From positions 1-64,000 of the forward strand of contig PBHE01000003.1 of NCBI GenBank assembly GCA_002719335.1: a stretch of DNA of 64,000 bases, in the 5' to 3' direction. Made by a program: the position numbers and the translations under genes. Source of the DNA: Acidimicrobiaceae bacterium (lineage in GTDB: Bacteria; Actinomycetota; Acidimicrobiia; Acidimicrobiales; Poriferisodalaceae). The notes beneath the pieces were generated by a model that saw only the letters and a list, made by a program, of their open reading frames with translations, made no database searches and was not told the origin of the DNA. This document shows, piece by piece, positions 51,681 through 57,164 of the stretch (within the stretch, counting starts at the first letter, position 1; each line of letters begins with the position of its first letter).

Positions 51681-52652
51681 TTACTTCGAGAGAGGCTTCA
51701 CCAATCTAAGTGCTTGGGGACGCCAATTGAATTTGAGGCTCTTGACAGTCCCCAAATAATCGCCATCTAGCTGATGAGGAAATGGGTCATGCCCAGTTAG
51801 GGCAAGCTCCGTCAGGTTGTGGGCAACATGAATGAGATCGTTGTTCTCCAGCGGTTTGCCCTGAAAGAGATCAATCAACAAGCCGGTCATGGTGCTAAAC
51901 GACAACGTTCGCAAAGCTACGACGCTGAGGCCGCGATCAAGAGTTGCCTCCGGGGCTAGGGACAGCGGGCGGCTCCCTAAATAGGTATAGGGATCTGTGT
52001 TCAACACCACCGTGAAGTAGCTGTCATCGACACCACCGTGTTTGTGTCGGACAGTCATTCTCGGCTTCGTTCGGTCATAGTGACGGAGCCAAGTATCAAC
52101 ACCGGCCCAAATGAACAAAGGGTGCCCTGCGTAGCGTTTCAATGTTGATCTCCGCTCCACCTGCTCTACGACTGCCGCATCGAAACCACTCCCGCAATGG
52201 AAAAGGAAATAACGCCCTTCGACTTCACCGAGACCGACAGATTCAATCGAATTAGCCGCAATCGCTGCGACTAGTTGATTCGTAGCCTCCAACGGCTCGT
52301 CGGCCAATCCGATGGTCCTAGCAAAGACGTTGGTGGACCCGCCAGGCAGGGGAGCCAACGCGCACTGGGTTCCAGCGAGTCCGTTAGCTGCTTCGTTGAG
52401 GGTTCCGTCCCCCCCGAGTACAGCAACGATGTCGGTACCAGTCGCAGCGGCGCCTCGCGCTAATCGAGAAGCATGACCGCGACGGCTGGTCATGGCTAGT
52501 TGTACCGAATGGTGTTCAGCTAGTGCTGTTTGGATTAGCACTCTTGTTCGTGCTGTAACCGATGAAGCCGATCCGTTGACGAGGAGTAAAATCTGCACGC
52601 GGCTAGTGTCGCCGATTTCTGCGGAGATAGTCGAACCGAGCACCATCAACAA
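51681..52652 (-). CDS. Diacylglycerol/lipid kinase family protein
   Basis: GTDIVAVLGGDGTLNEAANGLAGTQCALAPLPGGSTNVFARTIGL typical of DAGK catalytic domain; start codon uncertain. Confidence 0.92.
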   Translation of the reverse strand: MLMVLGSTISAEIGDTSRVQILLLVNGSASSVTARTRVLIQTALAEHHSVQLAMTSRRGHASRLARGAAATGTDIVAVLGGDGTLNEAANGLAGTQCALAPLPGGSTNVFARTIGLADEPLEATNQLVAAIAANSIESVGLGEVEGRYFLFHCGSGFDAAVVEQVERRSTLKRYAGHPLFIWAGVDTWLRHYDRTKPRMTVRHKHGGVDDSYFTVVLNTDPYTYLGSRPLSLAPEATLDRGLSVVALRTLSFSTMTGLLIDLFQGKPLENNDLIHVAHNLTELALTGHDPFPHQLDGDYLGTVKSLKFNWRPQALRLVKPLSK

Positions 52653-52739: not shown

Positions 52740-53519
52740 ATGAAGGTCATTGTCTGTGTCAAACAGATCCCAGATCCGGCGTTGCCGGGTGAGTTGGATC
52801 CCTCTACTAACTACCTCAAACGGGATGACAAGCTGATCCTAGATGAGTCCGATTCCTACGGGGTGGAGATGGCGCTCCAACTTGTCGAAGCTGCCGGTGG
52901 CGGCGACGTCTCGTTGGTTTCGATGGCCCCCAATGGAGAAGTCGGCGGGCTCCGGACGGCGTTAGCGATGGGTGCCGAAGATGCCGTTCTTGTGAGCGAC
53001 AGCGCTCTTGCCGGAACCGATGCGCTCGGGACAGCGAAAGTTCTTTCTGCTGCAATATCGAGAATGTCACCCGATTTAATACTCGCCGGAGTCGAGTCAT
53101 CTGACGGTTACACCGGCACAGTCCCAGAGATGATTGCCGGGGCTCTCAACATGCCATCGATCACTTTTGCCAAACAAATTCGGGTTGAAGGAAGCACTGT
53201 AATGGTGCAGCGCCAGACAGAGGCAGGATATGACGACGTTGAGTGTCCGACCCCGGCGTTGGTCTCGGTTACGGCCGGCGTGGTGGAGCCTCGCTACCCG
53301 TCATTTAAAGGGATTATGGCGGCCAAGAAGAAGCACGTCGAGGAACTTGATCTTGATGCTTTGGGAATCGATTCGAGCGCCGTAGGGAAAGACGGTGCTC
53401 GCCAAGAGACCATCCGGGTTACGGATGCAGAAGCACGACAAGCTGGTGAAGTTGTCGAAGACCAAGGCGACGCTCACGAAAAGATCATTGAGTTCCTCGG
53501 CGAACTCAAGGTCATCTGA
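52740..53519 (+). CDS. etfB: Electron transfer flavoprotein beta subunit
   Basis: MKVIVCVKQIPDPALPGELD, ESDSYGVEMALQLVE, AGVESSDGYTGTVPEMIAGALNMPSITFA. Confidence 0.95.
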   Translation: MKVIVCVKQIPDPALPGELDPSTNYLKRDDKLILDESDSYGVEMALQLVEAAGGGDVSLVSMAPNGEVGGLRTALAMGAEDAVLVSDSALAGTDALGTAKVLSAAISRMSPDLILAGVESSDGYTGTVPEMIAGALNMPSITFAKQIRVEGSTVMVQRQTEAGYDDVECPTPALVSVTAGVVEPRYPSFKGIMAAKKKHVEELDLDALGIDSSAVGKDGARQETIRVTDAEARQAGEVVEDQGDAHEKIIEFLGELKVI

Positions 53520-53530
53520 GGAGGCTGGAC

Positions 53531-54493
53531 ATGTCGATCGACACCATCCTTGTATTCGCAGAAGGCGACGAGAGTGGCCCTAGCGGTCTAACTCTGGAGT
53601 TAATGACTGCGGCGCGGAGCCTCGCCACTAACGTTGAGGCTTTCGTGGCCGGCGACGGAGCTTCCATGGCCGACGAACTCGGTGCTCACGGAGCCTCCAA
53701 GGTATTTAGTACTGGCCCTCTCGAGGGCAGGCTTATAGGAGTTCATGCTGCCGCGGCGCTTCAGGCACAGATTGAAGCAAACACCCCCGATGCGGTTTTC
53801 TTTGGACAAACTCCAGATGGGCGAGACACGGCAGCCCGTCTTGCTGTTCGCATAGATCAGCCAGTCGTTACAAATAATGTTGGCGCTTCATTCGAGGATG
53901 GAGTGCTAGTCGTTGAAGAACCAGTTTTTGGTGGAACTCAGAATGTATTTACTGCCTTTCGAAACGATGGTCCGGCGTTAGCACTATTTCGACCTAAATC
54001 GTTCGAAGCTGAACCAACTGGGGGCGGGTCAGCGGAAGTCGTTGGAGTTGAAGCAGTGGACCCCGGAGTTGCGGGATCGGCTGTCGTGACCGGCCGCCAC
54101 GCAGAAGAGCGCTCTGGTCCGCAGTTGGACGATGCGGCAGTAGTGGTTTCTGGAGGCCGCGGGCTAGGCCAGCCGGAGGCATACGCTATGATCGACGAGT
54201 TGGCGGGCCTGCTGGGAGCGGCATCGGGAGCGTCTCGGGCGATTGTGGACGCCGGGTGGGTTCCATACGCCAAGCAAGTCGGTCAGACCGGCAAGGTTGT
54301 AAAACCGAACCTATATGTGGCGTGCGGAATTTCAGGAGCGACTCAGCACCTTGTCGGGATGAAGGGTTCCAAAAACATCATCGCGATCAATAAGGACCCT
54401 GAAGCACCTATCTTCGGGGTGGCTGATCTCGGCATCGTCGGCGACGTGCACAAGGTTATTCCGGCCTTGATTGAAGCTTTGAGATCCCGGTAG
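53531..54493 (+). CDS. etfA: Electron transfer flavoprotein alpha subunit
   Basis: VSGGRGLGQPE, GAASGASRAIVDAGWVPYAKQVGQTGKVVKPNLYVACGISGATQHLVGMKGSKNIIAINKDPEAPIF. Confidence 0.96.
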   Translation: MSIDTILVFAEGDESGPSGLTLELMTAARSLATNVEAFVAGDGASMADELGAHGASKVFSTGPLEGRLIGVHAAAALQAQIEANTPDAVFFGQTPDGRDTAARLAVRIDQPVVTNNVGASFEDGVLVVEEPVFGGTQNVFTAFRNDGPALALFRPKSFEAEPTGGGSAEVVGVEAVDPGVAGSAVVTGRHAEERSGPQLDDAAVVVSGGRGLGQPEAYAMIDELAGLLGAASGASRAIVDAGWVPYAKQVGQTGKVVKPNLYVACGISGATQHLVGMKGSKNIIAINKDPEAPIFGVADLGIVGDVHKVIPALIEALRSR

Positions 54494-54555: not shown

Positions 54556-55317
54556 TTAGATAAGCGGCCAAGGCCACCTATAGCCATCATCTGCAGGGAA
54601 AATTGGCGATTCGCTCAGCCATCGCGCCCGTTGCATAAGTGCATCAACTTCGTCTTCGTCAAGCCATGGCGCTAACCGTTCGATAGCTCCTGTCGCGACA
54701 TGTTGCACACCTTCGAGTAAATGGTCATCGATTGGTTCGTTGGCAAAGTTCCAGATAACGGTCCGCAACTTGAAGTCGCGCGAGAAGCAGAGACCATGAT
54801 CGATTCCATACACGCGTCCCCATTCTGAAAGGAGGCAGTGACCTGATTTCCTGTCAGTGTTGTTAGCTAACAAATCAAGAACGCAGAGCCTTCGAAGATC
54901 TCGATGATGCAGCGGGTTCTTTACGAGTGTGAAGTAGTGCTGGGTGAAGTCGGCATCAATGAACAATTGGATAGATCCGGGTCCGTGGGGCCCAATGCGT
55001 TCTACCGTGGGAGGCACGACGTTCCATCCCAACTCATCACTTAATTCGTAGGCGGCGATTTCCCTTCGATGCAGCCCTGACGGAAAATCCCAGAGTGGTC
55101 GCTCACCCTTCACAGGTTTGTAGATCCCGTTCACTGCTAAGTCGCCTCGCTCTACACGGACAAGGAAGGTGGCGTTCGAACTGTAGGGCATGCGGGCGAG
55201 TAGCTCTACGTCGCCATGGACTAACACCTCATGGGCAGCTTCAAGGCCCACGAAGTCGGTCGACTGGGAATCGCTGCCTTCAGCGTTTTCGTCACTCACC
55301 AATGGGTTTATGGCCAT
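54556..55317 (-). CDS. SCO1664 family protein (kinase-fold-like, PI3/PI4-kinase-type motifs)
   Basis: NGIYKPVKGERPLWDFPSGLHRREIAAYELSDELGWNVVPPTVER, LRRLCVLDLLANNTDRKSGHCL, VYGIDHGLCF. A GTG further in (GTGAGTGACGAAAAC) overlaps the DUF3090 stop and is an alternative start. Confidence 0.85.
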   Translation of the reverse strand: MAINPLVSDENAEGSDSQSTDFVGLEAAHEVLVHGDVELLARMPYSSNATFLVRVERGDLAVNGIYKPVKGERPLWDFPSGLHRREIAAYELSDELGWNVVPPTVERIGPHGPGSIQLFIDADFTQHYFTLVKNPLHHRDLRRLCVLDLLANNTDRKSGHCLLSEWGRVYGIDHGLCFSRDFKLRTVIWNFANEPIDDHLLEGVQHVATGAIERLAPWLDEDEVDALMQRARWLSESPIFPADDGYRWPWPLI

Positions 55318-55747
55318 TCTGCCGGCCGAAATCCTGGCCGTACTCGATCAAAAATAGTGCGTGATCAACAAATGCTTTGGCCTGACCCAAGGTGATGTGA
55401 ATATGAGCTTGTGAGGGTTCATTCTCTTCCTGATCAGGTAGCTCTTGGGCCACAACAATGAGCTGTTCAGGTTCTTCGCTGAGTCCGATGGCTAACGCAC
55501 CCACGGTCCATACCGCGTCTGGCGGCTCAATCATTTCTGTGACTGAAACTGTTGATACCAGATTTTCGTTGTCTTCAAGAATTTCGGCGAGGTGACTTGC
55601 GAGCGACTGAACTTGACCTTTCTCAACTTTAAGAGTCAGGACGAGACTTTCGGCGTGTGCTTGCAGATAAAAGATGCGGGCTCCGGGCGCTCCGACGGTT
55701 CCGGCAACGAAGTTCTGCGGGTTCGTTATTTCGTAGTTGTCAGTCAT
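55292..55747 (-). CDS. DUF3090 family protein
   Basis: NPQNFVAGTVGAPGARIFYLQAHAESLVLTLKVEKGQVQSLASHLAEIL typical of DUF3090. Confidence 0.9.
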   Translation of the reverse strand: MTDNYEITNPQNFVAGTVGAPGARIFYLQAHAESLVLTLKVEKGQVQSLASHLAEILEDNENLVSTVSVTEMIEPPDAVWTVGALAIGLSEEPEQLIVVAQELPDQEENEPSQAHIHITLGQAKAFVDHALFLIEYGQDFGRQNGHKPIGE

Positions 55748-55771
55748 TGTTCCTGGTGAAAAATTTGGGTT

Positions 55772-56413
55772 TTAGTTTGGTGTCAGCGATTTGAGATCAC
55801 CGGTGTTGTTCACTGCTAATACAACCGGACCGCTTGGTGTGTAAAGGATTGCTGTGACCGAGCATGGTGACACAACTATGCGTTGAAAGAGATCTAAGTG
55901 AGTTCCCATGGCGTGAGCGATCAAGGCGCGAATCGGATCGGCGTGGCTTACTGCGATCACCGTTTTTCCACGATGGTTTGCCACTAAACGGTCTACGGTC
56001 TGAGACACTCTGGTTTGCATCTCGACGAAAGACTCTCCGTTGGGGAACCTAAATCCGGACGGGTATTTTTGTACAGTCGACCATGCCTTCAGCTTGCGCA
56101 ATTGGCTGAGCTTCCGACCGGTCCAATCACCGACATCGAGTTCTATTAGTCCGCGGTTTTGCTTGATGGGAATGCCAACTCTCTTGGAAATGGGAATGGC
56201 CGTCTCTCGCGTACGCTCTAAAGGGCTCGAGTAAATAGCGGCAATACGACGTTGATTCATCTCAGAAATTTGTTCTGCCACCTTCTCTGCTTGACTTAAT
56301 CCCACCTCGGATAGGTGAATCCCTGGTTTTCTGCCGTACAAATCAACACCAGTTGTCGGGGTCTGTCCGTGCCTTACGAGAAGGATCAGTGTAGGTCGTT
56401 CGGAAGAAGCCAC
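55772..56413 (-). CDS. Histidine phosphatase family protein, MSMEG_4193-type putative phosphomutase
   Basis: LILLVRHGQTPTTGVDLYGRKPGIHLSEVGLSQAEKVAEQI, YSSPLERTRETA, VIAVSHADPIRALIAHAMG. Confidence 0.9.
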   Translation of the reverse strand: MASSERPTLILLVRHGQTPTTGVDLYGRKPGIHLSEVGLSQAEKVAEQISEMNQRRIAAIYSSPLERTRETAIPISKRVGIPIKQNRGLIELDVGDWTGRKLSQLRKLKAWSTVQKYPSGFRFPNGESFVEMQTRVSQTVDRLVANHRGKTVIAVSHADPIRALIAHAMGTHLDLFQRIVVSPCSVTAILYTPSGPVVLAVNNTGDLKSLTPN

Positions 56414-56474: not shown

Positions 56475-57164
56475 GTGGACTCCTTGGTTTCACTGGCTGC
56501 TGAGATAGCTGATTGTCGTCGATGTGATCGTCTAGTGGAGTGGCGTGAACAAGTTGCCTCGGAGAAGCGGGCGGCGTTTCGAGACCAAGACTATTGGGGA
56601 CGGGGTGTACCCGGGTTTGGGGATCCCGCCGCGAAAGTCATGATCGTTGGCTTAGCGCCAGCGGCTCATGGCGCCAATCGGACCGGACGTGTCTTTACCG
56701 GGGATCGATCTGGAGATTTTCTTTTCGCCTCGCTACACAGGACGGGGTTTGCCAATCAGTCATTTGCTCGACATGTCGGAGATGGACTCCAACTGGAGGG
56801 TGCCTATGTCACCGCAGCCGTGCGATGCGCGCCCCCTGCGAACAAGCCGACAACGGAAGAACGTGACGAATGCCGACCCTTCATCGAACGTGAATTGGAG
56901 CTGCTTCCTCAAGCTGAGGTTTTTGTGGCGCTGGGACAGTTTGGCTACCAAGCAACGTGTTCAATTCTCGGAGTGCGTCCTCGACCCCGGTTCGGCCATG
57001 GAGTTGTAGTGCCGCTGTCAGAGTACGGTGTTGAGCGCGCGGGAAATATTGTTTGTTCGTTTCATCCGAGTCAACAGAACACCTTTACGGGACGCCTTAC
57101 CGAACCGATGCTCGATCAAGTTTTCTTCACGGCGCGCGAACTTGCGCAACTAAAGCCCGCCTAG
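56475..57164 (+). CDS. Uracil-DNA glycosylase family 5-like (UdgB)
   Basis: CRRCDRLVEWREQVA, VMIVGLAPAAHGANRTGRVFTGDRSGDFLFASLHRTGF, AVRCAPPANKPT, SFHPSQQNTFTGRLT. Confidence 0.9.
   Translation: MDSLVSLAAEIADCRRCDRLVEWREQVASEKRAAFRDQDYWGRGVPGFGDPAAKVMIVGLAPAAHGANRTGRVFTGDRSGDFLFASLHRTGFANQSFARHVGDGLQLEGAYVTAAVRCAPPANKPTTEERDECRPFIERELELLPQAEVFVALGQFGYQATCSILGVRPRPRFGHGVVVPLSEYGVERAGNIVCSFHPSQQNTFTGRLTEPMLDQVFFTARELAQLKPA

Follow-up and report, generated by a model that had tools for sequence, protein, structure and literature searches.

What do three genes do that bacteria keep together as a set of conserved hypotheticals, and for which the literature searched holds no published function? 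A 64,000-nucleotide stretch of Acidimicrobiaceae DNA (the window) raises this question, since its minus strand carries, in this order, a histidine phosphatase (PHO; 55772-56413, 213 aa, GTG start), a DUF3090 protein in a form without the C-terminal zinc knuckle (55292-55747, 151 aa) and an SCO1664/TIGR03843 kinase-like protein (KIN; 54556-55317, 253 aa). A previous sequence-only reading had placed three minus-strand ORFs here and quoted motifs from them, all of which are present, and its family assignments proved to be far beyond chance. KIN belongs to TIGR03843, matching positions 1-252 of the 253 in the profile (E=2.9e-74, 249.6 bits, cut-off 172.4), and PHO belongs to TIGR03848, the MSMEG_4193 subfamily of branch 1 (E=1.8e-62, 210.4 bits, cut-off 203.85), and also matches His_Phos_1 (E=1.2e-51). 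The middle protein is a member of PF11290 (E=5.4e-23, 82.1 bits, cut-off 27), but its 88.9 bits fall below the TIGR03847 cut-off of 117.25. The trio is already catalogued as TIGR03848/TIGR03847/TIGR03843, and we take it to be Rv2135c-Rv2134c-Rv2133c of Mycobacterium tuberculosis, with Rv2133c as the presumed counterpart of KIN, and MSMEG_4193-4191. The window has the same families, order, strand and intact catalytic residues as this catalogued trio, but mshC is not adjacent and DUF3090 has neither the zinc knuckle nor a score above the TIGR03847 cut-off. What is new here is the DUF3090 without a knuckle, a two-gene unit that appears to have been transferred, the variants found in Chloroflexota and an association with inositol lipids.

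The gap between PHO and DUF3090 is 24 bp, and the end of DUF3090 overlaps the start of KIN by 26 bp (55292-55317, minus strand) with the ATG at 55317, or by 8 bp with an alternative in-frame GTG at 55299. This corrects the overlap suspected earlier, as the GTG that lies directly on the DUF3090 stop (55295) is not in the reading frame of KIN. Because the KIN frame opens before the DUF3090 stop in 153 of 188 loci, coupling of the two genes seems to be usual, and the overlap is likely to result in translational coupling. A uracil-DNA-glycosylase-type gene lies upstream and divergent (56475-57164, plus strand) and two genes reading as ETF subunits lie downstream and convergent (52740-54493), which makes the trio an operon on its own; scans for promoters and terminators at the locus gave no signal above chance. 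Beyond the ETF genes and on the same strand as the trio, the window encodes a DAGK_cat lipid kinase of the diacylglycerol-kinase type (51681-52652), a gene common to about 36 of the compared loci (Acidimicrobiia). In some Acidimicrobiia, the next gene after KIN on the same strand matches DUF6183 weakly (L036, 9825-10838), and this gene is absent from the window. Besides the trio itself, the neighbours that recur in this comparison, for which gene calls were crude, are lineage-specific only, namely the ETF and DAGK-type genes (Acidimicrobiia), mshC (Actinomycetes) and AAA/VWA genes (Micrococcaceae), and for this reason the neighbourhood was dropped as a guide to function.

KIN and DUF3090 are found together in 125 of 297 genomes of the phylum, with one further genome holding KIN alone (weak, E=9e-4) and one DUF3090 alone, while PHO is missing from only one of the 126 carriers (present in 125) and also occurs, with lower scores, in 12 genomes outside this set. 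The order PHO-DUF3090-KIN on one strand was kept in the 60 loci fetched, bar one second copy without DUF3090 that had been picked on purpose, and no gene fusion was seen in the loci compared, where the best ORFs for two trio members never coincided. These results agree with the claim that the families co-occur and are co-linear, but not with their restriction to Actinobacteria, since the trio is also found in Chloroflexota. When one genome per species was scanned, KIN was detected in Chloroflexota and also in MAGs that bear the label Rokuibacteriota. Some of the Chloroflexota loci contain DUF3090-KIN without an adjacent phosphatase; one locus has PHO-KIN with DUF3090 undetected, and another has KIN with neither partner in the 4 kb upstream. 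A phage origin was rejected after no relative had turned up among the viral contigs scanned, and so was spread by plasmids, for which there were two records only, one of 11.85 Mb and one of 33 kb with chromosomal-type genes. The single match in a phage collection, MT835969.1 (L204), is filed as 'Bacteriophage sp.', but since the trio is complete in it and comes with CorA, transport genes and the start of mshC, it looks like a piece of actinobacterial chromosome joined to other sequence.

Loss of catalytic residues was looked for in the alignments, and those of both KIN and PHO are intact and invariant. PHO has the full catalytic set (R14, H15, R67 and H157), with the presumed phospho-acceptor H15 in LVRHGQT (R14-H15 codons at 56369-56374, minus strand) and the second catalytic histidine, H157, in SHADP (55943-55945, minus strand). 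In 66 diverse homologues of KIN, residues K67, E72, E86, D155, R156, K157, H160 and D173 do not vary from phylum to phylum. Going by the fold, K67 of IYKP (55117-55119) would be the ATP-binding lysine and D173 of DHG (54799-54801) a metal ligand of the DFG type, and the catalytic loop D155-R-K-S-G-H160 lies between them (54838-54855; all on the minus strand). Five positions (+5) after the catalytic Asp, the invariant H160 takes the place of the usual Asn, so the chemistry of KIN could differ, and this unusual histidine might imply a different metal preference. The idea that KIN is a pseudokinase was rejected, as the motif misses were DQG/DNA/DNS variants or matches split by inserts, and K67, D155 and D173 were kept. 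To judge by its modelled fold and conserved residues, KIN is very probably an active phosphotransferase.

The fold of KIN was to be compared with PI3/PI4 kinases and HipA. An AlphaFold2 model made from 66 homologues is a kinase fold (pLDDT 86.9), and a Foldseek search with this model gave FAM20A as the top match (5wrr, 2.3e-7) together with PI4KIIalpha (4hne, 3.1e-7), with further matches to PI4KIIbeta, FAM20C and CtkA of H. pylori. PDB sequences searched with a profile yielded PI4KIIbeta (7.7e-5), FAM20A (5.4e-4) and PI4KIIalpha (0.004), and residues 112-186 of KIN match part of the Pfam domain PF00454 PI3_PI4_kinase above its cut-off (E=1.9e-07, 31.7 bits, cut-off 27.1). The predicted kinship with PI3/PI4 kinases thus stands, but FAM20 is equally close and PI4K or HipA was therefore not the whole choice; by structure and profile, KIN lies between PI4K type II and FAM20, its N-lobe aligning with FAM20A and its C-lobe with PI4K-II. 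It shares with PI4K2A and PI4K2B the fold (4hne, E=3e-7) and the C-lobe motifs GSxQLFV, DxxxxNxDR and IDxGLxF, but the human enzymes are larger than KIN (about 250 aa) and have Asn at +5 (DRGxDN) where KIN has His, which leaves KIN outside the subfamily. With the FAM20 proteins (the pseudokinase FAM20A, the protein kinase FAM20C and the xylosylkinase FAM20B) it shares the fold (5wrr, E=2e-7) and the N-lobe alignment KPxR..E..xDF...E.AA...VPPTV; those proteins are secreted and have Glu at +5, whereas KIN is bacterial, has no signal peptide evident by eye and is not a member. A membrane segment or lipid-binding motif was sought in KIN and none was identified, and its fold and motifs do not separate a lipid from a protein substrate.

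In Arthrobacter, Citricoccus and Kocuria (Micrococcaceae), PHO and KIN occur as a pair that lacks a DUF3090 gene in between, and one genome (G008) contains both such a pair and a complete trio. The Micrococcaceae pairs form one clade in the KIN tree and in the PHO tree (support 99 and 98, respectively), and this clade is placed inside Acidimicrobiia, beside Ilumatobacter-type rows, with support of 97 for PHO and 82 for KIN. Since the pairs nest in Acidimicrobiia in both trees, the two enzymes seem to have been transferred as a unit, with one joint transfer as the simplest reading, and this co-transfer is the best evidence here for a substrate common to both enzymes. Because it took place without DUF3090, it also makes DUF3090 less likely to be that substrate, although a resident DUF3090 could still serve the transferred pair. 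The proposal of DUF3090 as adaptor or target is not supported in the sense of an obligatory role, given the PHO-KIN pairs that lack it and the zinc knuckle that can be dispensed with. In six loci (L050, L119, L128, L140, L147 and L149, at about 3.7-7.8 kb) the pair is divergent from a MoxR-looking AAA ATPase and a VWA-domain protein, the VWA domain being confirmed by Pfam in L050; of the eight Micrococcaceae pairs listed, at least six have one or both of these genes next to them.

DUF3090 homologues end in CxxCGxPxDPxGHxCPxxNGH, in which CxxC...HxC reads as a zinc knuckle motif, and the canonical motif is present in 147 of 186 DUF3090 proteins. The protein of the window lacks this canonical form; D139-F140-G141 (55325-55333, minus strand) replaces the CxxCGxPxDPxGHxCP segment and the RxNGH tail is kept. 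The same replacement is seen in 30 of 30 loci of the window's family, at 43-90% identity, which rules out an assembly error and argues that the knuckle was lost as one unit before the family diversified, with KIN and PHO left intact. Knuckle cysteines were lost independently in a DUF3090 from Anaerolineaceae UBA4775 (L165, 7420-8696), where all of them are gone, the adjacent phosphatase is absent and a PIP-synthase-like gene was not found in the genome; this is apparently a decaying module. The model of a full-length homologue was confident (pLDDT 90.3), and a fold search with it gave no significant match in the PDB or in a viral structure library. In the DUF3090 model (L097:6568-7071), a strand-strand-strand-helix pattern is predicted twice, at residues 8-62 and 76-147, and the two halves align weakly as a beta-alpha repeat (hhalign E=4e-4 local, probability 36%), which is only suggestive of an internal duplication. 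Transposon results on the middle gene are hints, not proof: insertions in MSMEG_4192 were over-represented after dibucaine, a disruptor of the membrane compartment (PMC10127668), and Rv2134c is in a rifampicin-sensitivity list from BCG (PMC11329110).

The fixed-order operon, the intact Lys/Asp/Asp of KIN, the intact catalytic pair of PHO, the near-strict co-occurrence and the co-transfer of PHO and KIN support, at the level of sequence, the view that the trio is one module for reversible phosphorylation, which we consider probable and which fits the opposing kinase/phosphatase pair put forward by the sequence-only reading. KIN would phosphorylate its substrate by the mechanism of PI4K-II and FAM20, with K67 holding ATP, D155 serving as the base and D173, perhaps with H160, holding the metal, possibly Mn2+. 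PHO would then strip the phosphate added by KIN through a phospho-His15 intermediate, and DUF3090, co-translated with KIN, would be an accessory protein that places KIN or regulates it, while the zinc knuckle, which the family of the window has dropped, would be a separable contact. If such a module is granted, the chances that its substrate is an inositol compound are about even, so our best overall reading, in which a module for reversible phosphorylation works on an inositol lipid or a related compound, is put forward tentatively.

Inositol is brought in by the gene content of the carriers. Inositol-phosphate synthase (Ino1, of either type) was detected in 122 of 126 carriers vs 87 of 171 other genomes; PF07994 was rejected as the lone marker for inositol synthesis since neither C. 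glutamicum nor most of the mshC genomes were picked up by it, and TIGR03450 was therefore added. A PIP-synthase-like gene was found in all 32 carrier families vs 18 of 39 others (Fisher p=1.3e-7; one genome per family, E < 1e-25, a threshold set after a gap between about 99 and 75 bits was seen), its matches outside Actinomycetes being mostly below the curated cut-off. It was also found in 15 of the 17 Chloroflexota genomes with KIN, where carriers only were counted, and L165 is one of the two exceptions. By association, the trio is thus nested within a set of probable inositol-lipid makers, and shared ancestry and genome reduction could explain this; the 18 non-carrier families with a PIP-synthase-like gene show that the trio is not needed for making PI. 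The substrate would most likely be phosphatidylinositol, and its conversion to and from PI-phosphate would be a signal of the membrane or of stress rather than a step on which PI synthesis depends. We know of no assigned PI kinase in mycobacteria. According to the title of a 2010 paper by Morita, cited in PMC11237483, mycobacteria make PI 3-phosphate under stress. That the trio is a bacterial phosphoinositide switch, made of a PI kinase, a PI-phosphate phosphatase and a helper, in the Actinobacteria and Chloroflexota that make inositol lipids, is the bolder form of the proposal and a rather unlikely one. Against an inositol substrate are the FAM20-type protein and glycan kinases, as close to KIN as PI4K-II is, the lack of any identified membrane segment or lipid motif and the His in place of Asn, and some Chloroflexota loci that have DUF3090-KIN but no phosphatase beside them are a further point against.

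The main rival keeps the same module and gives it a protein substrate, so that KIN would be a FAM20/HipA/CtkA-like kinase, PHO a phosphoprotein phosphatase and DUF3090 the scaffold or substrate. We regard this as possible, if somewhat doubtful. The ranking of FAM20A first among the Foldseek matches, followed by FAM20C and CtkA, speaks for it, as do the match of the KIN N-lobe to FAM20A over the lysine, E...DF and VPPTV stretches, a catalytic loop with D-x-K spacing as in protein kinases, the almost constant presence of a co-translated DUF3090 and the divergent AAA ATPase and VWA genes beside the Micrococcaceae pairs. However, a protein substrate leaves the near-universal Ino1 and PIP-synthase-like genes of the carriers unexplained, the transferred pair persists without a DUF3090 of its own, and no candidate target besides DUF3090 is linked to the trio across phyla.

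That the substrate is a soluble metabolite, whether inositol phosphate, sugar or repair intermediate, handled by a metabolite kinase and a phosphatase of a minor pathway, appears improbable. Kinases of the fold class of KIN act mostly on lipids, proteins or glycans, which counts against this explanation. In its favour, the nearest solved relatives of PHO act on small molecules, namely a phosphoserine phosphatase (4ij5, 2.4e-18), CobC and glucosyl-3-phosphoglycerate phosphatase. PHO shares RHG, SxPLxRxxET and SHxD with the branch of phosphoserine phosphatase 1 and alpha-ribazole phosphatase, but it is below the cut-offs of these equivalogs and is operon-linked to a kinase. Apart from the hints on the middle gene, the only experimental data found for the trio locus in the literature searched are those on Rv2135c, the histidine phosphatase of the corresponding M. 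tuberculosis locus, a tetramer reported in membrane fractions that is a weak acid phosphatase on pNPP (0.23 umol/min/mg), PEP and glycerol-1-P (PMC3866925). This enzyme does hydrolyse small phosphates, but its activity is weak and its Km is 8-14 mM on all those tried (PMC3866925), and for this reason none of them looks natural. Rv2135c, to which the acid phosphatase assay belongs, has RHA where PHO has RHG.

A role of the trio in mycothiol metabolism is very improbable, despite the linkage that suggested it. mshC adjoins the trio in 20 of the 22 sampled genomes with an over-cut-off mshC (Actinomycetes), all 22 carry the trio, and Chater's review calls SCO1664 invariably closely linked to mshC (PMC4255298). 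The view of mshC as a frequent neighbour is correct for these genomes but not in general, as an MshC or MshC-like gene was found in 65 of 126 carriers vs 4 of 171 non-carriers and, at the threshold used, in none of the other 61 carriers; mycothiol therefore fits the trio much worse than inositol does. In Acidimicrobiia, including the genome of the window, the MshC-like gene is unlinked to the trio. The mycothiol ligase gene is absent within the window, as had been noted, but the genome (G000) has an MshC-like gene on another contig (C24:6678-7793; 424 bits, cut-off 485), whose identity needs care because its product also passes the CysRS cut-off. MshA-like (C10:54613-55785; 370 bits, cut-off 462.5) and MshB-like (C5:163378-164199; 167 bits, cut-off 224) genes and an inositol-phosphate synthase (C24:86613-87335) are present too, which suggests a divergent and possibly complete mycothiol pathway that scores below the NCBI cut-offs and is common in Acidimicrobiia.

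Least probable of all is that PHO is the missing phosphatase of actinobacterial PI synthesis, with KIN reversing the step, since, even though the enzyme for PI-phosphate to PI was still unidentified in 2015 (PMC4634129) and, for mycobacteria, in 2019 (PMC6506517) and PHO co-occurs with PIP-synthase-like genes, the 18 non-carrier families with such a gene have no trio, Bacteroides performs this step with a PgpA-family protein and not a histidine phosphatase (PMC9246714), and some carriers have no PHO beside DUF3090-KIN.

Returning to the reversible phosphorylation module, a kinase and a phosphatase are conserved across the phylum, M. tuberculosis and Streptomyces included, and three natural variants offer handles on them: the minimal two-gene unit of Micrococcaceae, the DUF3090 without a knuckle in the window and those loci of Chloroflexota in which no phosphatase is adjacent. 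Should the inositol reading be true, these bacteria would own a phosphoinositide signalling system whose kinase is a relative of PI4K-II and FAM20 of humans. If the trio is moreover a phosphoinositide switch, KIN would be a candidate source of the PI 3-phosphate that mycobacteria make under stress, independently of the host.
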